Assembly (NCBI GenBank): GCA_902805735.1
Contig: CADCTW010000161.1
Coordinates: 1 to 64,000 of the forward strand
Length of the DNA stretch: 64,000 bases
DNA from: an uncultured Gemmatimonadota bacterium
GTDB lineage: Bacteria; Gemmatimonadota; Gemmatimonadetes; Longimicrobiales; Longimicrobiaceae
Direction of reading: 5' to 3'
Below are positions 3,859 through 22,136 of this stretch, piece after piece. The notes under the pieces were generated by a model. It had not been told where the DNA came from, searched no databases, and worked only from the letters and a program-made list of their open reading frames with translations. Numbering within the stretch: position 1 is the first letter of the stretch; the number at the start of each line of letters is the position of its first letter. The position numbers and the translations under genes are program-made.

Positions 3859-6627
3859 GTGGACAAGCCCGAAAAGACCCGCCCGCGCCTTTTCCTGATC
3901 GACGGCTATGCGCTGATCTACCGTGCCTTCTTCGCCCTGATCTCGCGCCCGCTCATCTCGTCCAGGGGGGAGAACACCTCGGCGGCGTGGGGGGTCACCA
4001 AGTTCCTCATCAAGGTGATCGAGCAGCACGAGCCCGACTACCTGGGGATGGTGTTCGACGCCGGGACCTCGGACCGCCACGTCATCTTCCCCGCGTACAA
4101 GGCCACGCGCGAGAAGATGCCCAGCGAGCTGGAGAGCTCGCTGGCGCGCATCCGCCAGGTGGTCGAGGCGTTCCGCATCCCCGTGGTGGAGCTGGCCGGC
4201 TACGAGGCGGACGACGTGATCGGCACGCTGGCGGACCAGGCCACCGAGGCGGGGCTGGAAACGGTGATCGTGTCCGGCGACAAGGACTTCTACCAGCTCA
4301 TCCGCCCCCACGTGTGCCTGCTGAACCCGGGGCGCGGCGGCCCGCAGGCGGTGGACGAGGAGTGGGTGGACACCCGCAACGCCAACGAGCGGCTGGGGGT
4401 GCCCCCCGAGCACGTGACGGACTACCTGGGGCTGATCGGCGACACGTCGGACAACGTGCCCGGGGTGCAGGGGATCGGGCCCAAGACGGCGATCCAGCTC
4501 ATCGAGCAGTTCGGCCCCATCGAGGCGATCCTGGAGCACGCCGAGGAGGTGAAGGCCAAGCGTCCCCGAGAGGCGCTGCTGGCTTCGCGCGACGTGGCGC
4601 TCCTTTCCAAGCAGCTCGTCACCATCCGCCGCGACCTGCCGGTGGAGCTGGACCTGGAGGCGCTGCGCCGCAAGGAGCCCGACCGGCCCGCCCTGAAAGA
4701 GCTGATGCTGGCGCTGGAGTTCCACTCGCTGGTGCGCGACTGGGCCGGCCCGGCGCCCGAGGCGGCGGCGGAGCCCCGCCCCGTGGCCGACTACCAGCTC
4801 GTGCAGGACGTGACCGAGCTTCACACGCTGGTGGCGGCCGTCCGCGCCGCGGGGCGCGTGGCGGTGGACACGGAAACGAGCAGCACCGACCCGATGCGCG
4901 CGGAGCTGGCGGGGATCTCGATCTCGATCGTCCCGGGCGAGGGCTTCTACCTCCCCTTCGGCCACCGCGGCCGCTCGCAGGGGGAGCTGGAGGTGGATGC
5001 GCCCGCGGAGGAGGTGAGGAACCTGCCGCCGCTCCACTCGGACGAGTGCGCGCCGCTGGTGGCGATGCTGGAGGACCCGGCCGTCACCAAGGTGGGGCAG
5101 AACCTGAAGTACGACTTCCTGGTGTTCCGCCGGGCGGGGGTCACGCTGCGGGGGATCGCCTTCGACACCATGATCGCCAGCTACCTGCTGGAGCCGGGGC
5201 GGCGCGAGCACGGGCTGGACTCGCTGGCGCTGCAGCACCTGGACTACAAGACGACCACCTACGAGGAGGTCGCCGGCAAGGGCAAGGCGCAGATCCCCTT
5301 CGCCGAGGTGGAGCTGGAGGCGGCGCGTGACTACGCCTGCGAAGACACGGACATCGCCCTGCAGCTCACGGAGCGCTTCGCGCCGGAGCTGGAGCGGCTG
5401 CACCTGGAGCCCCTCTTCCGCGACATCGAGATGCCGCTGGTGGAGGTGCTGGCGGACATGGAGTGGGCCGGGATCCGCATCGACGAGCCCTTCTTCGCGC
5501 GGATGAACGAGGACCTGGTGGGGAAGCTGCGCGACGTGGAGCGCGAGATCTACGCCGAGGCGGGAACGGAGTTCAACATCGGCTCCAACCCGCAGCTCCG
5601 CGAGATCCTCTTCACGCGCCTGGGGCTGCCCATCATCAAGCGCACCAAGACGGGCGCCTCCACGGACGTGGACGTGCTGCAGGCGCTGGCGGCGCAGGGG
5701 CACGCCCTTCCCACGCTGCTGATGAAGTACCGCCAGCTCGAAAAGCTGCGCGGCACCTACGTGGAAGCGCTGCCGCACATGGTGAACCCCGAGACGGGGC
5801 GCATCCACACCTCGTTCAACCAGACGGTGGCCGCCACGGGGCGCCTTTCCTCCACCGACCCCAACCTGCAGAACATCCCCATCCGCACGGAGATGGGGGC
5901 GGAGATCCGGCGCGGCTTCATCCCGGCCGAGGGCAACGTCTTCGTGTCCGCGGACTACTCGCAGATCGAGCTGCGCATCCTGGCCCACTACTCCGCGGAC
6001 CCGGCGTTCGTGGAGGCGTTCCGCGCGGGCGTGGACATCCACCGCCAGACGGCGGCGCTCATCTTCGGCGTGCCGCCGGAGGAGGTGACGCGCGAGATGC
6101 GCGACCGGGCCAAGACCACCAACTTCGCCATCATCTACGGCATCGGCCCCTTCTCGCTGGCGGGCCGCCTGGGGATCAGCCAGTCGGAGGCCAAGACCTT
6201 CATCGAGCAGTACTTCGAGCGCTTCCCCGGCGTGCGCCGCTACCTGGACGAGCAGATCGAGTTCGGGCGCACGCACGGCTACGTGGAGACGATCACGGGC
6301 CGCCGCCGCTACATCCCGGAGATCACCTCCCGGAACTTCAACGTGCGGGCCTTCGGCGAGCGCGCGGCGACCAACGCCCCTATCCAGGGGTCGTCCGCGG
6401 ACCTCATCAAGATCGCCATGATCCGCATCCACCAGGACCTCAAGCGCGACTCCGGCGGTGCCCGCATGCTCCTGCAGGTGCACGACGAACTGCTCTTCGA
6501 GGTCCCCCGCGACGGGGCCGACGCGCTGCTGGAGCGCGTGCGCGAGCGCATGGAAAACGCGATGGAGCTGAACGTGCCGCTGCGGGTGGAGAGCGGGACG
6601 GGAATGAACTGGCTGGAAACGAAATGA
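3859..6627 (+). CDS. polA: DNA polymerase I
   Basis: A 922-residue polymerase of full family length that fills repair gaps and removes primers. The N-terminal 5' nuclease (about residues 9-300) starts LFLIDGYALIYRAFFA. The 3'-5' exonuclease domain (about 325-505) keeps its acidic residues: D337 and E339 in VDTET, the NLKYD motif, and D498 in YACEDTD, so proofreading is probably active. The polymerase domain carries motif A (DYSQIELR, D699), motif B (RAKTTNFAIIYGIG) and motif C (HDE, 875-877). The start is GTG at 3859. Nothing adjacent suggests an operon. Confidence 0.97.
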   Translation: MDKPEKTRPRLFLIDGYALIYRAFFALISRPLISSRGENTSAAWGVTKFLIKVIEQHEPDYLGMVFDAGTSDRHVIFPAYKATREKMPSELESSLARIRQVVEAFRIPVVELAGYEADDVIGTLADQATEAGLETVIVSGDKDFYQLIRPHVCLLNPGRGGPQAVDEEWVDTRNANERLGVPPEHVTDYLGLIGDTSDNVPGVQGIGPKTAIQLIEQFGPIEAILEHAEEVKAKRPREALLASRDVALLSKQLVTIRRDLPVELDLEALRRKEPDRPALKELMLALEFHSLVRDWAGPAPEAAAEPRPVADYQLVQDVTELHTLVAAVRAAGRVAVDTETSSTDPMRAELAGISISIVPGEGFYLPFGHRGRSQGELEVDAPAEEVRNLPPLHSDECAPLVAMLEDPAVTKVGQNLKYDFLVFRRAGVTLRGIAFDTMIASYLLEPGRREHGLDSLALQHLDYKTTTYEEVAGKGKAQIPFAEVELEAARDYACEDTDIALQLTERFAPELERLHLEPLFRDIEMPLVEVLADMEWAGIRIDEPFFARMNEDLVGKLRDVEREIYAEAGTEFNIGSNPQLREILFTRLGLPIIKRTKTGASTDVDVLQALAAQGHALPTLLMKYRQLEKLRGTYVEALPHMVNPETGRIHTSFNQTVAATGRLSSTDPNLQNIPIRTEMGAEIRRGFIPAEGNVFVSADYSQIELRILAHYSADPAFVEAFRAGVDIHRQTAALIFGVPPEEVTREMRDRAKTTNFAIIYGIGPFSLAGRLGISQSEAKTFIEQYFERFPGVRRYLDEQIEFGRTHGYVETITGRRRYIPEITSRNFNVRAFGERAATNAPIQGSSADLIKIAMIRIHQDLKRDSGGARMLLQVHDELLFEVPRDGADALLERVRERMENAMELNVPLRVESGTGMNWLETK

Positions 6628-6766: not shown

Positions 6767-7726
6767 ATGGCCCGCAATCCCGGCACCCCGGCGGACGACG
6801 CGCCGCGCCCCTTCCTGCTGGGCATCAGCGGCGATTCGGGGAGCGGCAAGAACACCGTGGCGCAGGGGGTGCGCGCCCTGCTGGGGGCCGAGCGGGTGGC
6901 CACCCTGGAGCTGGACGACTACCACCGCTTCACCCGTGCCGAGCGCGAGGACCGGGGGATCACGGCGCTGGAGCCCTCGGCCCACAACCTGGGGCTGGTG
7001 CAGGAGCACCTGGGGCTCTTCCGCCGCGGCCGCCCCATCCGCAACCGCGCGTACGACCACAGCGACGGCACCTTTGGCCCCATCCGCATGGTGGAGCCCA
7101 ACGAGGTGGTGATCGTGCGCGGCCTCCTCGCCTTCCCCACCGACGACCTGCGCGCGGCGTACGACCTGGCCGTCTTCCTCTGCCCCGAGCCCGAGCTCCT
7201 CTTCCGCTGGAAGCTGCGGCGCGACGTGCGGACGCGCGGCTACACCGAGGCGCAGGTGCTCAAGCACATCGTGCAGCACCTGCTGGACAGCAAGGAGTAC
7301 GTCCTCCCGCAGGCCGAGCGCGCGGACGTGGTGGTACGGTACACGGTGCCGGAGTGGGACGCGCCCGATTCCGAGGTGCGCGCTTCCCTCCTCCTCCGTC
7401 GCCGCGCCGCCGAGGTGCTGCGCGGCGAGGAGCAGAAGCTGGCGCGCTTCGGCGGGCACGTACGCGTGGAGGAGGAGGGCGACGCCGTGGCCGTGCACGT
7501 GGAGAGCGGCCTGGGCGACGCCGAGCTGGACGCGTGGGCCGGAGAGCGCTTCCCCGGCACCTACCGCCCCGAGCTCGTGGGCCAGCACGTGAGCGACGAC
7601 GGCCAGCCCACGCGCCTCCTCCCCCTCGCTTTCTCGCAGCTGCTGGTCGCGGCCCTCGCCGAGCACCTTCGCCACCCGGGCGCGTCCGCGAACCCGGCCG
7701 TCCAGCGCGACTCGGCGGCGGCGTAA
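6767..7726 (+). CDS. phosphoribulokinase/uridine kinase-like protein with altered active-site residues
   Basis: A 319-residue P-loop protein. The N-terminal 210 residues follow the phosphoribulokinase pattern: P-loop GDSGSGKN at 22-29, LDDYHRFTRAEREDRGITAL, then RAYDHSDGTFGP and EPNEVVIVRGLLAF. Two usual residues differ: the Ser/Thr after the P-loop lysine is Asn29, and the glutamate of the EGL motif is Arg118. Residues 230-319 form an extension I cannot name. No RuBisCO or other Calvin-cycle gene is visible, so a carbon-fixation role is not supported. It may phosphorylate another substrate or have lost activity. Confidence 0.75.
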   Translation: MARNPGTPADDAPRPFLLGISGDSGSGKNTVAQGVRALLGAERVATLELDDYHRFTRAEREDRGITALEPSAHNLGLVQEHLGLFRRGRPIRNRAYDHSDGTFGPIRMVEPNEVVIVRGLLAFPTDDLRAAYDLAVFLCPEPELLFRWKLRRDVRTRGYTEAQVLKHIVQHLLDSKEYVLPQAERADVVVRYTVPEWDAPDSEVRASLLLRRRAAEVLRGEEQKLARFGGHVRVEEEGDAVAVHVESGLGDAELDAWAGERFPGTYRPELVGQHVSDDGQPTRLLPLAFSQLLVAALAEHLRHPGASANPAVQRDSAAA

Positions 7727-8894: not shown

Positions 8895-10190
8895 TCACGG
8901 TTTGAAGTAGATGTACTTCCAATCCGGCACGAGTTGCTCTCGCGCCTGCGCGGCCTCGATCGTTTGCGCGCTCTTCCACTCGGGGATGTACTCAGCGTTC
9001 TCGGAGCGGTTCATGTAGTTGCGCACCTTCTCTCCCCACTCTTTCCAGTCCCACCGATCCCAGACCAGGTGGCCACGGAAGTTCCTGTACCGCACCTCGC
9101 GGCCGATGTCGTTGTTGTGCAGATCCATCACCCGGTCCGTGGGCTCATTGTTCCCTCTAGCTTCGTACGTGTCCGCGATCACCTTAGCGGTGAATGAGCC
9201 CGCGTAGCGATGCATCTGCATGTTCCAGAAGATGTGACGGTAGGCGTCCTGGTGCGTGCTGCTGTACTCCCCTGGGAAGTACTGCGCGGATTTGGCTCTC
9301 GCCCGGTCAGCCGCTTGCGACACCCGCCAGGCCTTGTACCCGACATACGCATGGACCAACACCGCGGCGACGGTGACGGGGTCGACCTGGATCGTCACCG
9401 CTCCACCTTCCCGGCCACTCTGGCGTCCGAGTGGCGTCCACCCGTTGCCGGTCGCAACGATCAGGTCGTCGATCGTAGCGCGCTTGCCGGTCGTGGTGAC
9501 TATGACCTCGTCCCACCTGCTGAAAAACGAACCATCCGCCAGGGACTCCTGGTAGTATAGCTTCTCAATCTCCGGTTGCTCCATCTGGAGAGAGTCGATC
9601 TCCATTTGCAATGTGGGGACCGCGTCGTCGCTAGGCGGCAGGTACTCCTCCTGGCCCTCCCAGCTCGGATCCACCGCAGGGTCGGATGTCGTGCCCGATC
9701 CGTCGTCTGCTGGGGGAGAGCAGCTCTCGCCCGTATCCGGGTCGATGATGCTTGTCTCGGTACACGCCATCACTCCGATCGTTTTCTTCCAATCATGCAG
9801 ATCCCTCTGGTACGCCGCCCACGCAAGCCGCTGCTGACGGTTTTCCTCCAGGGCGTCCCTCATCATCCCGGCGTACCCCTTGTGCGGGTACAGTTGGCGC
9901 AGGCGGCGCTCCAGATACCGCTGGTATTCCTCGTTTTCGGGACTGAGGGTGGTGAGGCCCGGATTTTTATGCAGGTACTCCCGGTACAGGATGTAGACGA
10001 CTGAGGCGGGGTACACCGGGGCACGCGACACGAACTCCGGAGTTTCCGGCCGCGCCATCGACGCATTCGACGCGGAGGTGCCGCGCAGAGGCTGCTTCTG
10101 TCCCGAATCCACCACGGATTCGCAACCTGGTGCAGACAGCACACCAAGCGAGACGACGACCAGAGCCAACCGGCGGAGAGGATGGCGCAT
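8895..10190 (-). CDS. lipoprotein with DUF6973-like C-terminal domain
   Basis: A 431-residue protein with a lipoprotein signal (SLGVLSAPG then Cys). It has a long charged middle region and a C-terminal domain containing HQDAYRHIFWNMQMHRY, about 25 residues and then MDLHNNDIGREV. The histidine/aspartate pattern around DAxRHxxWN and MDLHNNxxGR matches DUF6973, a domain of unknown function that I recall in some large secreted proteins. I preferred the ATG at 10190 over an upstream one at 10214 because the signal peptide fits better. It is followed within five bases by lipoprotein A, and lipoprotein B lies upstream. Confidence 0.6.
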   Translation of the reverse strand: MRHPLRRLALVVVSLGVLSAPGCESVVDSGQKQPLRGTSASNASMARPETPEFVSRAPVYPASVVYILYREYLHKNPGLTTLSPENEEYQRYLERRLRQLYPHKGYAGMMRDALEENRQQRLAWAAYQRDLHDWKKTIGVMACTETSIIDPDTGESCSPPADDGSGTTSDPAVDPSWEGQEEYLPPSDDAVPTLQMEIDSLQMEQPEIEKLYYQESLADGSFFSRWDEVIVTTTGKRATIDDLIVATGNGWTPLGRQSGREGGAVTIQVDPVTVAAVLVHAYVGYKAWRVSQAADRARAKSAQYFPGEYSSTHQDAYRHIFWNMQMHRYAGSFTAKVIADTYEARGNNEPTDRVMDLHNNDIGREVRYRNFRGHLVWDRWDWKEWGEKVRNYMNRSENAEYIPEWKSAQTIEAAQAREQLVPDWKYIYFKP

Positions 10191-10450
10191 GCGCGAGGGG
10201 GTGCAGCGTGGCATGATGCTTTACGTAAAAAGAGGGGGGGCATTCTTGCCCGCAACCTGCTTGACTGGCCAGCTCGCGAAGAAGCGCAAAAGATCCCAAA
10301 GGGTGCGGTTCAACTTACTTTGAGAGATCTGGGTCTGCAAGGGTGTGCGGAAAACGTGCGCGCGTTAGATGTATGCCGCCACAGAAAAGCGCACGCGGCT
10401 CTTCACGCGAAGGGCGGAGATGCGCGAGTAACGCGCGCGGTAGCGTTGAG
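10191..10450. other. intergenic region, no gene seen
   Basis: Together with the hairpin at 10451-10490 this fills the 322 bases between lipoprotein B and the DUF6973-like gene. It should contain the promoter of the latter, reading on the minus strand. I could not identify convincing promoter boxes, and no open frame looks coding. Confidence 0.5.
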
Positions 10451-18261: not shown

Positions 18262-18924
18262 TCAGCCGTTGGCGAACGGGGAGCGATCGTAGTTGGCCAG
18301 CAGGTCGGCGGGATCGTCGTAGATGGCCACGGCGTCGCCCAGGTCCTCGTCGCCCCAGCCGCCGCAGCGGAGGGCCACGCAGGGGACGCCCGCCCGGCGC
18401 GACGCTTCCACGTCGTAGGGCGTGTCGCCCAGCATCACGGCCTCGGCGGGCTTGCACCCGGCCTTCTCCACCGCGGCCTCCACCACGTCCGGGTCCGGCT
18501 TGGAGGCTTCCACGTCGGACTGCGAGGTCTTCGCCTCGATCAGGTCCTTGATCCCCGCCTTTTCCAGCAGCTTCCCCATGTCGTCCTTGCTGGCCGAGGT
18601 GGCCACCACCAGCGCCAGCCCGTCCGCCTGGAAGCGCTCCAGCAGCTCGCGCGCCTGCGGGAAGGGCTTCAGCGTGGGGAGATACTGCTCCTGGAAGATC
18701 TCGCCGCGGCGCTTCTTGACCCGCTTCGCCTCGTCCGAGTCGTCGTCCAGCCCCGTGATCTCGGGGACCACCTTGTCGCCCCCCTTGCCGATCAGGCTGC
18801 GCACGTGCGCGAAACTGATATCGTAGCCCATCTCCTTCCCCACGTCCACCCATGCGTGGGCGTGCGCGTCGTTGCTGTCGATCAGGGTGCCGTCGATGTC
18901 GAGTACCGCCGCGCGTACCTTCAT
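18262..18924 (-). CDS. HAD-superfamily phosphatase
   Basis: A 220-residue hydrolase of the beta-phosphoglucomutase/phosphoglycolate type. All four motifs are visible: LDIDGTLIDSN (nucleophile D9, D11), ATSAS at 108-112, the conserved lysine in SKPDPD at 141-146, and MLGDTPYDVEAS at 164-175. The substrate is a small phosphate ester that I cannot name. The start overlaps the stop of the FAD/Rieske gene as ATGA, so the two are co-translated. Confidence 0.9.
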   Translation of the reverse strand: MKVRAAVLDIDGTLIDSNDAHAHAWVDVGKEMGYDISFAHVRSLIGKGGDKVVPEITGLDDDSDEAKRVKKRRGEIFQEQYLPTLKPFPQARELLERFQADGLALVVATSASKDDMGKLLEKAGIKDLIEAKTSQSDVEASKPDPDVVEAAVEKAGCKPAEAVMLGDTPYDVEASRRAGVPCVALRCGGWGDEDLGDAVAIYDDPADLLANYDRSPFANG

Positions 18925-20453
18925 GCGTCTTCCAGCTTCTTGAGGGGATGGGGAGCAGGCCCGTTCAGAACCGCGCCGTCGGTAGCGAAGCGCGAGCCGT
19001 GGCAGGGACAGTCCCACGAGCGCTCCAGCCCGTTCCACGCCACCACGCACCCCAGGTGGGTGCAGATGGCCGAAAGCTCGTGCAGCGTTCCGCCCTCGTC
19101 GCGGTAGGCGGCCACCTTGAGCATCCCCCTCTGCAGCACCGCGCCCGTGCCCGGCGCGATCTCCTCGGCCGACTTCACGTCGCCGCCCAGCGGCAGCAGG
19201 TCCTTGTACTGCACCGCCACGTCCACGTTCTCCATCACGAACTCCTTCACCGAGTCCGTGGAGACCGACTTCCGCTTGGGATCGTACAGCTGCTCCCAGG
19301 GGTTGGGGCGGCCCAGGACGAGGTCCGCGATGAGGATGCCGCCCAGCGTGGCGTGGGTCATCCCCTGCCCGCTGTCGCCGGTGGCGATGTACACGTTCTC
19401 CTGCCCGCCGGGATCGCGGCCGATGAAGCCGATGAAGTCCATGGGCTCCATCACCTGCCCGCTCCACCGGAGCTGCACGCCCTGGATGGGGAAGCGCTCG
19501 CGCGTCCACTCTTCCAGGCTGGCGAAGCGCTCGCCCATGTCGTTGGCGTGCCCCGTCTTGTGGTCCTCGCCGCCCACGATGAGCATCTCGTGCGCCGGGT
19601 CGCCGGGGATGCGCGAGAGGCGCACGTAGTGGTAGTGCTCCAGCGTGTCCCAGTACAGCCCGTGCGGCACGGAGCCCGTGGGCACGCGCGCGCCGATCAC
19701 GTAGGTGCGGTAGGGCGCCTGCTTGGTGTGGATGGCGAAGCGGTCGTTGATGGGCGAGTTGGTGGCGACCACCACGGCCCCCGCGCGCACCTCGAAGCCC
19801 TCGCCGCGCGCCACGGCCGGGGTGCCGCCCTCCACCTCCAGCACGTGGTTGGCCGTGTAGATCCTGCCGCCGTCCCGCTGGATGCAGCGCGCCAGCCCTT
19901 CGATGTACTTCAGCGGATGGAACTGCCCCTGCCGCGCGAAGCGGAGCCCCGGCCCGCTGTCGAAGGTGGGGATGGGGAGGCGGTCCACGATCTCCACGGT
20001 GGCCCCGGCGCGGCGCGCGGCCTCCATCTCCTTCCGCAGGAAGTCCGCCGTCTCGTTGGGCGCCAGCCAGAAGTAGCCGTCCAGGTGCTCGTAGTCGCAG
20101 TCGATCCCCTCGGCCGCGGAGATCTCGCCGATGCGGTCCACGGCGGCCTGGTGGCTCTGGTAGATGAGCTTGGCGCCCTCCTCGCCGTGCACCTTTTCCA
20201 GGACATGGTAATAGTCGTCCTGGGCGCTGGCCAGGTGCGCCGTCGTCTGCCCCGTCTCGCCCCCGCCGATGCCGTTGTCGTCCAGCACGATCACCTTCTT
20301 CCCTTCGCGGGCCAGCAGGTACGCGGTGGTCATCCCCGCCAGCCCCGCCCCCACCACGCACACGTCCGCCTCCGCCGCGCCGCTCAGCGCGCCGTACTCG
20401 GGCTGCGGATTCGTGGTCTCCCAGACCGACACGGACCTCTCCGAAGATTTCAT
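18921..20453 (-). CDS. FAD-dependent oxidoreductase with C-terminal Rieske domain
   Basis: A 510-residue protein. Residues 28-400 form a DAO-type FAD domain, with the dinucleotide loop VCVVGAGLAGMTTAYLL at 31-47 and the C-terminal FAD contact YIATGDSGQGMTHATLGG. The last 80 residues are a Rieske 2Fe-2S domain with CTHLGC and CPCHGSRF as ligand motifs. This is the arrangement of YhfW-like proteins, whose electron donor and substrate are not established. The start is the ATG at 20453. It overlaps the HAD phosphatase gene. Confidence 0.92.
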   Translation of the reverse strand: MKSSERSVSVWETTNPQPEYGALSGAAEADVCVVGAGLAGMTTAYLLAREGKKVIVLDDNGIGGGETGQTTAHLASAQDDYYHVLEKVHGEEGAKLIYQSHQAAVDRIGEISAAEGIDCDYEHLDGYFWLAPNETADFLRKEMEAARRAGATVEIVDRLPIPTFDSGPGLRFARQGQFHPLKYIEGLARCIQRDGGRIYTANHVLEVEGGTPAVARGEGFEVRAGAVVVATNSPINDRFAIHTKQAPYRTYVIGARVPTGSVPHGLYWDTLEHYHYVRLSRIPGDPAHEMLIVGGEDHKTGHANDMGERFASLEEWTRERFPIQGVQLRWSGQVMEPMDFIGFIGRDPGGQENVYIATGDSGQGMTHATLGGILIADLVLGRPNPWEQLYDPKRKSVSTDSVKEFVMENVDVAVQYKDLLPLGGDVKSAEEIAPGTGAVLQRGMLKVAAYRDEGGTLHELSAICTHLGCVVAWNGLERSWDCPCHGSRFATDGAVLNGPAPHPLKKLEDA

Positions 20454-20524
20454 CGACCGTCTCCTTTAGACGTTGAAAGAGCGGGCCGGGGGCCTTGCAA
20501 GTGCCGTGACAGAGAACTGCAGGG

Positions 20525-20544
20525 CTCACACAGAGACACAGAGA
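20525..20544. repeat. CACAGAG single arm (copy 10)
   Basis: One left arm directly followed by the inverted-pair element at 20548-20668, upstream of the FAD/Rieske gene. Confidence 0.75.
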
Positions 20545-20547
20545 CGC

Positions 20548-20668
20548 CGGAGGATGAATCCCCCGGCTGGATGGGCAGGAAGCCCGCTGAAGCGGGCTCG
20601 GTAGCCGGACCCATGCGAGCCCGCTTCAGCGGGCTTCCCGTGGTTCCAGCGGGGGGTTTCAACCCCTC
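20548..20668. repeat. inverted pair of GGTTCCAGCGGGG-type elements
   Basis: Two copies of a roughly 53-base sequence face each other (20548-20601 and 20615-20667). Each contains the palindrome AGCCCGCTGAAGCGGGCT or its complement and ends GGTTTCAACCCC or its variant. The pair could form one long hairpin. It fills the gap between the convergent ends of this repeat region and SelO. Confidence 0.75.
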
Positions 20669-20678
20669 GCGCGGGGGC

Positions 20679-22136
20679 CTACGTTCCGCAGAAGGTGGCG
20701 TGCACGCGTTCGTGGGCGGCGGGGGGGTCCTGGTAGTGCTCGAAGCCGGGTTGGGAGTCGAACGGCCTCGACAGGACGGCCAGCAGCTCTTCGAAAGGCG
20801 CGAAGTCGTCGCGGTCGACGGCGGCGCGGATGACGGCTTCCACGCGGTGGTTGCGGGGGATGAAGGCGGGGTTGGCGGCGAGCATGGCCGCGCGGCGGGC
20901 CGCCGGGTCGCTCTGCTCCTCCTCCAGGCGCTGGCGCCAGCGCGCGGCCCATTCGTCGAAGGCGGCGGGGTCCGTGAAGAGGCTTCGCACGGACGGATCG
21001 TCTTCGCTGAGGCGGCGGAAGGTGTTGGTGAAATCGGCCATGTTCGTCGCCATGGCCAGCAGCAGGCCCTGGGCGAGCTCGATGTCGCCGTCGCGCTCCG
21101 TGAGCAGGCCCAGCTTGCGCCGGAGCCCCGCCTGGTACGCGCGCTCGAACGCCGGCGCGAACAGGTCCAGCGCCTCGTTGGCCTCGGCGGCTCCCGCTTT
21201 CGTGTCGTCCGCGAGGAGGGGGAGGAGGCACTCCGCAAGGCGGACCAGGTTCCACTCGGCGATGGCCGGCTGGTTGGAGTAGGCGTAGCGCCCGTAGCTG
21301 TCGATGGAGCTGAAGACCGCCTGGGGATCGTACTCGTCCATGAAAGCGCACGGGCCGTAGTCGATCGTCTCGCCGGCGACCGAGCTGTTGTCCGTGTTCA
21401 TCACGCCGTGGATGAACCCGACGAGGAGCCACTGGGCGATCAGCTCGGCCTGCGCGCGGATCACGGATTCCAGGAGGGCGCGGTAGGGACGCTCGGCCTG
21501 CGCCGCGTCCGGGTAGTGCCGGGCGATCACGTGGTCCGCCAGCGTCCGCACGCCCTCCACGTCGCCGCGGCTCGCGAAGAACTGGAAGGTGCCCACGCGG
21601 ATGTGGCTGGAGGCGACGCGCGCCAGCACCGCGCCGGGAAGCATCGTATCGCGCCGCACCTGGTCGCCGGTGGTCACGGCGGCGAGGGCCCGCGTGGTGG
21701 GGATGCCCAGCGCGTGCATCGTCTCGCTGACCAGGTACTCGCGCAGCACGGGGCCCACGGCCGCCCTCCCGTCCCCGCCGCGCGAGTAGGGGGTGCGGCC
21801 GGCGCCCTTGAGCTGCACGTCGCGACGTATGCCGCGGCGGTCGACGAGCTCGCCCAGCAGGATCGCGCGCCCGTCCCCGAGCTGCGGCACGAAGTTGCCG
21901 AACTGGTGTCCGGCGTACGCGGTCGCGATGGGCTCCGACGTCTCCAGCACGCGGTTCCCCGCCAGCACCTGCACGCCTTCCTCGCCGGCGAGCCACTCCG
22001 GATCGAGGCCCAGGTCGGCGGCGAGGGGCGCGTTCACCCTGATCAGCCGCGGGGCCGGCACGGGCGTGGGCACGACACGCGCGAAGAACCGGTCCGGAAG
22101 CCGCGCGTAGCTGTTGTCGAAGGGGGGCCGAACCAT
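20679..22136 (-). CDS. selO: protein adenylyltransferase SelO (YdiU family)
   Basis: A 485-residue pseudokinase-fold enzyme that transfers AMP from ATP to protein hydroxyl groups. The family stretches are present: YAGHQFGNFVPQLGDGRA, VQLKGAGRTPYSRGGDGRA at about 108-126, RVGTFQFFASRGDVEGVRTL, and FIHGVMNTDNSSVAGETIDY with the metal-binding DYGP. The C-terminus ends FCGT, keeping the cysteine where some relatives have selenocysteine. The start is the ATG at 22136, giving the usual family length. It is divergent from the next gene. Confidence 0.95.
   Translation of the reverse strand: MVRPPFDNSYARLPDRFFARVVPTPVPAPRLIRVNAPLAADLGLDPEWLAGEEGVQVLAGNRVLETSEPIATAYAGHQFGNFVPQLGDGRAILLGELVDRRGIRRDVQLKGAGRTPYSRGGDGRAAVGPVLREYLVSETMHALGIPTTRALAAVTTGDQVRRDTMLPGAVLARVASSHIRVGTFQFFASRGDVEGVRTLADHVIARHYPDAAQAERPYRALLESVIRAQAELIAQWLLVGFIHGVMNTDNSSVAGETIDYGPCAFMDEYDPQAVFSSIDSYGRYAYSNQPAIAEWNLVRLAECLLPLLADDTKAGAAEANEALDLFAPAFERAYQAGLRRKLGLLTERDGDIELAQGLLLAMATNMADFTNTFRRLSEDDPSVRSLFTDPAAFDEWAARWRQRLEEEQSDPAARRAAMLAANPAFIPRNHRVEAVIRAAVDRDDFAPFEELLAVLSRPFDSQPGFEHYQDPPAAHERVHATFCGT

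Follow-up and report, generated by a model that had tools for sequence, protein, structure and literature searches.

A phosphoribulokinase (PRK)-like protein is encoded directly downstream of polA in the window, i.e., the whole stretch of 64,000 nucleotides analysed here, from an uncultured member of the Longimicrobiaceae (Gemmatimonadota). The positions of the gene and of its active-site residues are collected in Table 1. The overall pattern of a phosphoribulokinase, recognised in the first-pass annotation from the letters and their translation, has been borne out by the Pfam PRK profile (PF00485, E 3.6e-31) and by structural comparison. An AlphaFold2 model (pLDDT 88, pTM 0.86) predicts the PRK fold over the full length, with both the kinase core and the C-terminal domain. 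Its best structural match is a cyanobacterial PRK (9qkp_A, Z 36.4, 291 residues aligned), while Z scores of 29.6 and 21.9 were obtained with the PRKs of M. hungatei (MhPRK, 5b3f) and R. sphaeroides (1a7j), respectively. By sequence, the closest solved relatives are 9qko, described as 'cyanobacteria specific PRK' (E 3.8e-50), and 5b3f (E 6.8e-43).

Table 1. The PRK-like gene, its active-site positions and the upstream gene, in window coordinates
Feature	Position	Strand	Remarks
polA (DNA polymerase I)	3859..6627	+	by Pfam/NCBIfam; directly upstream of the PRK-like gene
PRK-like protein, 319 aa (Longimicrobiaceae R-type)	6767..7726	+	full-length PRK fold
P-loop GDSGSGKNT, residues 22-30	6830..6856	+	15 orthologues agree at K28 and T30 and vary at residue 29
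Asn29 codon, Ser/Thr position	6851..6853	+	MhPRK Ser31 by alignment
Asp50 in D50-D51-Y52-H53	6914..6916	+	catalytic base by alignment; invariant in every tabulated clade
Arg57...Arg60, sugar-phosphate anion site	6935..6946	+	MhPRK Arg59, Arg62 by alignment; invariant in 15/15
Tyr96...His98, sugar-phosphate anion site	7052..7060	+	MhPRK Tyr98, His100 by alignment; invariant in 15/15
Arg118 codon, replacing the EGL glutamate	7118..7120	+	gap-free alignment; Arg in 15/15 orthologues
Lid motif K149-x-x-R152-D153-xxx-R157	7211..7237	+	all four residues invariant in every tabulated clade

The glutamate of the EGL motif is a Mg2+ ligand of the PRK/uridine-kinase family and is usually taken to be an essential one. 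In R. sphaeroides PRK, its loss reportedly costs much activity. Walker B motifs usually coordinate Mg2+, as stated in the accessible portion of the MhPRK paper (PMC5241800). The window protein carries Arg118 in place of this acid, in a strand that reads VVIV-R118-GLLAF in the translation of 6767-7726, and its P-loop departs from GxxxxGK[ST] at Asn29. Both replacements had been pointed out in the first-pass annotation and both are real, as judged from the translation and a gap-free alignment. A shifted EGL glutamate was considered and rejected, as the alignment to PRKs and uridine kinases has no gap and no acid within the motif. The strand opens with an acidic residue, Glu/Asp113, five positions before Arg118; Glu is also frequent there in EGL proteins.

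Against NCBIfam NF005655 (PRK07429) the window protein scores 213.3 bits, below the cut-off of 236. This profile is matched by all 14 aligned orthologues (best E 3e-64 vs. 4.7e-63 for the window protein), and the eight other PRK-like proteins scanned, with or without the acid, exceed the cut-off with 276.6-349.5 bits. The scores with the uridine kinase profile TIGR00235 (68.4 bits, cut-off 220.3) and the class I PRK profile NF011997 (40.2 bits, cut-off 362) stay below the respective cut-offs.

In nine of the 15 loci that hold the gene in the family, polA immediately precedes it in the same orientation; in two more it is 3.2 and 5.5 kb off, again on the same strand. In the others polA is downstream (one), outside the sequence examined (two) or met by a contig end (one). 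With direct adjacency in 9/15 loci, the case for polA as an obligate partner is weak, and the arrangement may be old synteny only. A simple scan, which says little in this genome, found no terminator-like or promoter-like site between the two genes. Elsewhere in the window, a DUF6973 protein is encoded at 8895-10214 (-), and an FAD oxidoreductase fused to a Rieske domain at 18921-21998 (-), beside a SelO protein adenylyltransferase.

Orthologues in Longimicrobiaceae and the search for RuBisCO

Of 21 genomes in the family (the Longimicrobium group of Gemmatimonadota), 15 have an orthologue, counting the genome of the window. A search of another 40 genomes from the order yielded none; the matches there reach at most 86 bits and are uridine-kinase like. 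Among family genomes at least 90% complete, ten of 14 have the gene and four lack it; it is therefore not essential. The 14 aligned orthologues, from at least nine genera, keep long open frames with many invariant columns, and the NG86 dN/dS values lie between 0.07 and 0.56, below 1 in all nine orthologue pairs compared, although these are rough values because the genes are very G+C-rich. The open reading frame at 6767-7726 is a real, conserved gene.

The first-pass annotation had put the conservation of both replacements up for checking, and the two fared differently. Position 118 is Arg in every one of the 15 orthologues, but position 29 is Ser in nine, Asn in five (the window, L003, L004, L005 and L013) and His in one (L007), and the Asn29 rows occupy two separate places in the tree. 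Asn29 is a local trait and no family feature, the normal Ser being present in most orthologues. Invariant throughout are Lys28, Thr30, Asp50, Arg57, Arg60, Tyr96, His98, Lys149, Arg152, Asp153 and Arg157.

The RuBisCO large subunit (PF00016) was searched for in 61 genomes of the order. None of the 21 family genomes gave a match. Ten matches above the cut-off came from the rest of the order, including a full-length RuBisCO in another family (G054, 449.9 bits). The genome of the window is 86% complete, and several complete relatives are likewise without RuBisCO. The first-pass remark that no Calvin-cycle gene is present nearby thus holds, for RuBisCO, across the whole genome. Since RuBisCO was found neither in this genome nor in the family, a role of the window protein in the Calvin cycle is unlikely.

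The divergence of the Longimicrobiaceae proteins was gauged at the positions where all RuBisCO-linked clades share their majority residue, the clade under test being left out; the cyanobacterial pair entered this comparison as RuBisCO-linked, which we take to be the case from general knowledge. The Longimicrobiaceae differ at seven of 46 such positions (C48E, N73H, K93N, P94R, R171H, F192Y and L204V), while the RuBisCO-linked clades, each left out in turn, are changed at 0-4 of 46-50. The Arg-type protein of G136 is changed at 3/46, the Chloroflexota His group at 0/46, the other RuBisCO-less acid-type groups at one to four of 46 and a set of alphaproteobacterial fusions at 10/46. Lack of RuBisCO alone is no predictor of the Longimicrobiaceae changes, because the Chloroflexota His group is RuBisCO-less as well and shows none of them. 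Moreover, the orthologues have lost basic residues at 145 (Leu in 15/15) and 183 (Ala in 14, Ser in one), and the stem branch of the clade in the tree is long, with 0.84 changes per column.

The EGL position across Gemmatimonadota and Chloroflexota

The EGL position was followed in 395 genomes of Gemmatimonadota and 400 of Chloroflexota, the latter giving 62 PRK-like places of at least 200 bits, all of which were read. In Chloroflexota the residue is Glu in 28 places, Asp in three, Tyr in 18, His in seven, Gln in four and Arg in two. The EGL acid does not define the PRK family, because it is missing in 31 of these 62 places, some of them RuBisCO-linked. Ser/Thr at position 29 is kept in all 62, acid or not. 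Gemmatimonadota outside the family have Arg (L066/L089), His (six loci in five genomes, G119 having two) and Thr (G207) among the non-acid types, and Glu in three loci of genus g72. The order of G585 (126 genomes searched) added one further Arg (L195) and one further Gln (L196). In this census L039, a match of 58 residues, was left unread, and L197-L228 were read for motifs only. Four alphaproteobacterial relatives have Ser at the EGL position and Asp at position 29; in these (L037, L038, L174 and L175) a membrane domain is fused to the PRK-like domain, with P-loop GKD and the motif SGLH, and L174 and L175 sit amid GtrA, glycosyltransferase, phospholipase-like and HAD genes. The Tyr type (L210-L212 and L214-L228) reads AYGxLTL, with Arg or Glu in place of lid Lys149, and 11 of its 18 places are second copies beside an acid-type PRK in the same genome.

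Non-acid PRKs share a gene cluster with rbcL in 15 loci of 14 genomes of Gemmatimonadota and Chloroflexota. The residue is His in six (L090-L093, L096, L098), Thr in one (L095), Arg in three and Gln in five (L229-L232, L236). The His and Thr types of Gemmatimonadota adjoin rbcL in all seven loci, usually together with rbcS and cbbX; the exceptions are L090, which is divergent, L092, which has neither rbcS nor cbbX, and L093, where rbcL is cut by the contig end. In Chloroflexota, the Arg types start 11, 3 and 11 nucleotides past the rbcL stop (G585, G414 and G868, respectively), with no rbcS in between, and the five Gln types all immediately precede rbcL-rbcS, with cbbX also present at three. 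Among the linked large subunits, those read (G585, G414, G868, G867) retain the KDDE active-site motif. The non-acid PRK is the sole PF00485 protein found in G074, G256, G260, G287, G414 and G585, and both PF00485 members of G119 are of the His type. Several Gemmatimonadota genomes with RuBisCO form IC/ID, rbcS and phosphoribulokinase have been surveyed (PMC10581226), and the accessible portion of that text makes no comment on the EGL residue.

Not every cluster member looks intact. Thr-type L095 of G207 has position 29 of its P-loop broken (Arg), and this case proves nothing, because the genome also encodes a class I PRK whose EGL motif is ordinary (EGLHG). The second PRK of G119 (L091:6102-7118), in an rbcL-rbcS-cbbX cluster, has Arg in place of the P-loop Lys (GDSGAGRST). 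Both L095 and this second copy may be decaying.

The first-pass annotation had read the loss of the EGL glutamate as pointing to another substrate or to nucleotide binding without catalysis. The 15 rbcL-cluster loci, and the six genomes in which a non-acid PRK is the sole PF00485 member, speak against that step; judging from gene linkage, loss of the glutamate need not mean loss of PRK function. The earlier reading was right on the facts and gave the motif change too much weight as evidence. A different substrate for the window protein is possible, but the case for it rests better on the missing RuBisCO and the 7/46 changes than on the EGL change. Our literature search returned no paper on PRKs without the EGL glutamate, with the mutagenesis papers mostly beyond its reach, so that absence is unproven.

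Absence of the EGL acid does not track RuBisCO in either direction. Of the Chloroflexota genomes carrying an acid-type PRK, 22 were examined, and RuBisCO was found in 17 and absent in five; it was not found in the three acid-type genomes of genus g72, in the Arg-type G136 or in five Chloroflexota His-type genomes searched (five of nine His/Arg genomes), and no rbcL lies within about 9 kb of three of the 18 Tyr-type places. The His places of G465 and G522 and the other 15 Tyr places fall outside these linkage counts. The PRK-like gene of G136 (L089:3552-6249) is directly followed by P-II and ammonium-transporter genes. In the three RuBisCO-less g72 genomes, the acid-type genes (L094, L097, L099) adjoin a gene for a predicted secreted hydrolase-like protein.

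The trees were rooted on the long uridine-kinase branch, several rows being long, and were drawn without the Gln rows L203, L204, L208 and L209, all Tyr rows and L109, the class I PRK of G207. A single clade of all non-acid PRKs was not rejected (AU p 0.26, 34 non-acid rows, first tree), and a single clade of the Arg rows was not clearly rejected (AU p 0.061). Changes between acid and non-acid number at least two with 74 rows or at least three with 76 rows. An EGL carboxylate is present in each of the 40 acid rows, those of the uridine kinases among them. Ser/Thr at position 29 is lacking in 11 rows, all among the 34 non-acid and none among the 40 acid ones. That position 29 becomes free to change once the EGL acid is lost is not statistically shown, with only one well-supported independent pair (three on all branches).

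Candidate functions and comparison with known systems

In our judgement, the chances are about even that the window protein is a sugar-phosphate kinase, still active but re-purposed, in which the handling of metal and phosphate has changed. It would belong to a branch of the class-II-type (plant/cyanobacterial/archaeal-like) phosphoribulokinases confined to the Longimicrobiaceae, and most likely it still phosphorylates a sugar phosphate with ATP, because R57, R60, Y96, H98, Asp50, K149, R152, D153, R157 and Lys28 are all kept. Arg118 would put a positive charge near the ATP phosphates in place of the metal ligand, and the metal could be held by Ser or Asn of the P-loop and water, or be needed less. 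An active site with Arg, His, Gln or Thr can presumably work, since relatives in RuBisCO operons have these residues. As the family has no RuBisCO, the product would not feed CO2 fixation. A shift in substrate or regulation is suggested by the changes at 48, 73, 93, 94, 171, 192 and 204 and by the basic residues lost from 145 and 183. Two points count against an active kinase: the EGL carboxylate is conserved in all acid rows of the tree, and the Asn or His that six of the 15 orthologues have at position 29 adds a second damaged metal ligand. A wider scenario, in which a broad PRK branch gave up the metal-binding glutamate, its ribulose bisphosphate (RuBP)-making members use Arg, His or Gln, and the Longimicrobiaceae made of it a RuBisCO-independent sugar-bisphosphate kinase with Arg118 in place of the metal, is offered as an unlikely extension.

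The main rival is a pseudokinase or sensor that binds ATP and a sugar phosphate, transfers no phosphate and acts through binding. We consider this rather doubtful, though it is the most serious of the alternatives. It would account for the EGL acid being gone in all orthologues and the P-loop Ser/Thr in 6/15, for the lost basic residues and for the lack of RuBisCO. A protein that only binds, however, would have no need of Asp50, Lys28, Lys149, Arg152, Asp153, Arg157 and His98, each invariant in 15/15, and there are RuBisCO-bearing genomes whose only PRK candidate is a non-acid relative.

A true phosphoribulokinase, whose RuBP is used outside RuBisCO, e.g., as a signal, seems to us improbable, and more so than the pseudokinase. 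All the sugar-phosphate-binding residues of MhPRK are retained, PRK takes part as an intermediate in regulatory signalling in Rhodobacter sphaeroides according to the accessible portion of PMC4806589, and the nearest relative with Arg118 outside the family is the L089 protein, next to the P-II and ammonium-transporter genes. Against this stand the changes at 7/46 positions common to RuBisCO-linked clades and the missed curated PRK cut-off; besides the absent RuBisCO, for which alone a search was made, the genome has no known user of RuBP.

The dephospho-CoA kinase gene often neighbours polA in other bacteria. A nucleoside or coenzyme kinase, such as a uridine kinase or a stand-in for dephospho-CoA kinase, is very improbable here: PF00485 does take in uridine kinases and polA is adjacent in nine loci, but the genome has a separate, ordinary uridine kinase (C187) with an acid at the motif (VDGILLF), and a complete C-terminal PRK domain together with the sugar-phosphate residues speaks for a PRK and not a uridine kinase. 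Replacement of dephospho-CoA kinase was rejected, as CoaE was found in 20/21 family genomes; in the remaining G020 (61% complete), the CoaE search matches only its uridine kinase. A decaying gene on its way out is just as poor a prospect: the gene is missing in 6/21 family genomes, but the open frames, invariant columns and dN/dS values given above speak against decay.

If the PRKs of RuBisCO clusters work with His, Gln or Arg, calling a protein inactive from this motif is unsafe, and how such kinases hold Mg-ATP becomes a testable question. The use of PRK as a marker of carbon fixation needs care as well, as RuBisCO-less Longimicrobiaceae and other genomes carry PRK-like proteins with or without the acid.

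Among known systems, the class-II-type PRKs (NF005655), the cyanobacterial 9qko, 9qkp and 9qkn included, share with the window protein the fold, the sugar-phosphate site, the catalytic Asp, the lid and the P-loop Lys. The window protein differs from them by Arg118 for the EGL Glu, Asn29, a score below the cut-off, the 7/46 changes and a family without RuBisCO. In MhPRK, Arg59, Arg62, Tyr98 and His100 correspond to R57, R60, Y96 and H98, but MhPRK has Ser31 and the EGL Glu where the window protein has Asn29 and Arg118. According to the accessible portion of its description (PMC5241800), MhPRK binds one sulphate by these four residues and another by the P-loop including Ser31, accepted ribulose 5-phosphate alone among nine substrates tried, and works in a RuBisCO pathway. 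Asp58 of Arabidopsis PRK is named as catalytic in the accessible portion of PMC9978339, and Asp50 fits it by alignment offset. The PRKs of rbcL clusters with His, Thr, Gln or Arg have the same strand position without an acid and keep the tabulated catalytic and sugar-phosphate residues; unlike the window protein, they are RuBisCO-linked, and L187, L186, L096, L092 and Thr-type L095 pass the PRK cut-off that it fails. With the Rhodobacter-type class I PRK (1a7j, NF011997) the catalytic scheme is common, whereas the sequence match is weak and the C-terminal part different. With uridine kinase (PF00485, TIGR00235) the P-loop kinase core is common, and it is the C-terminal PRK domain that sets the window protein apart.
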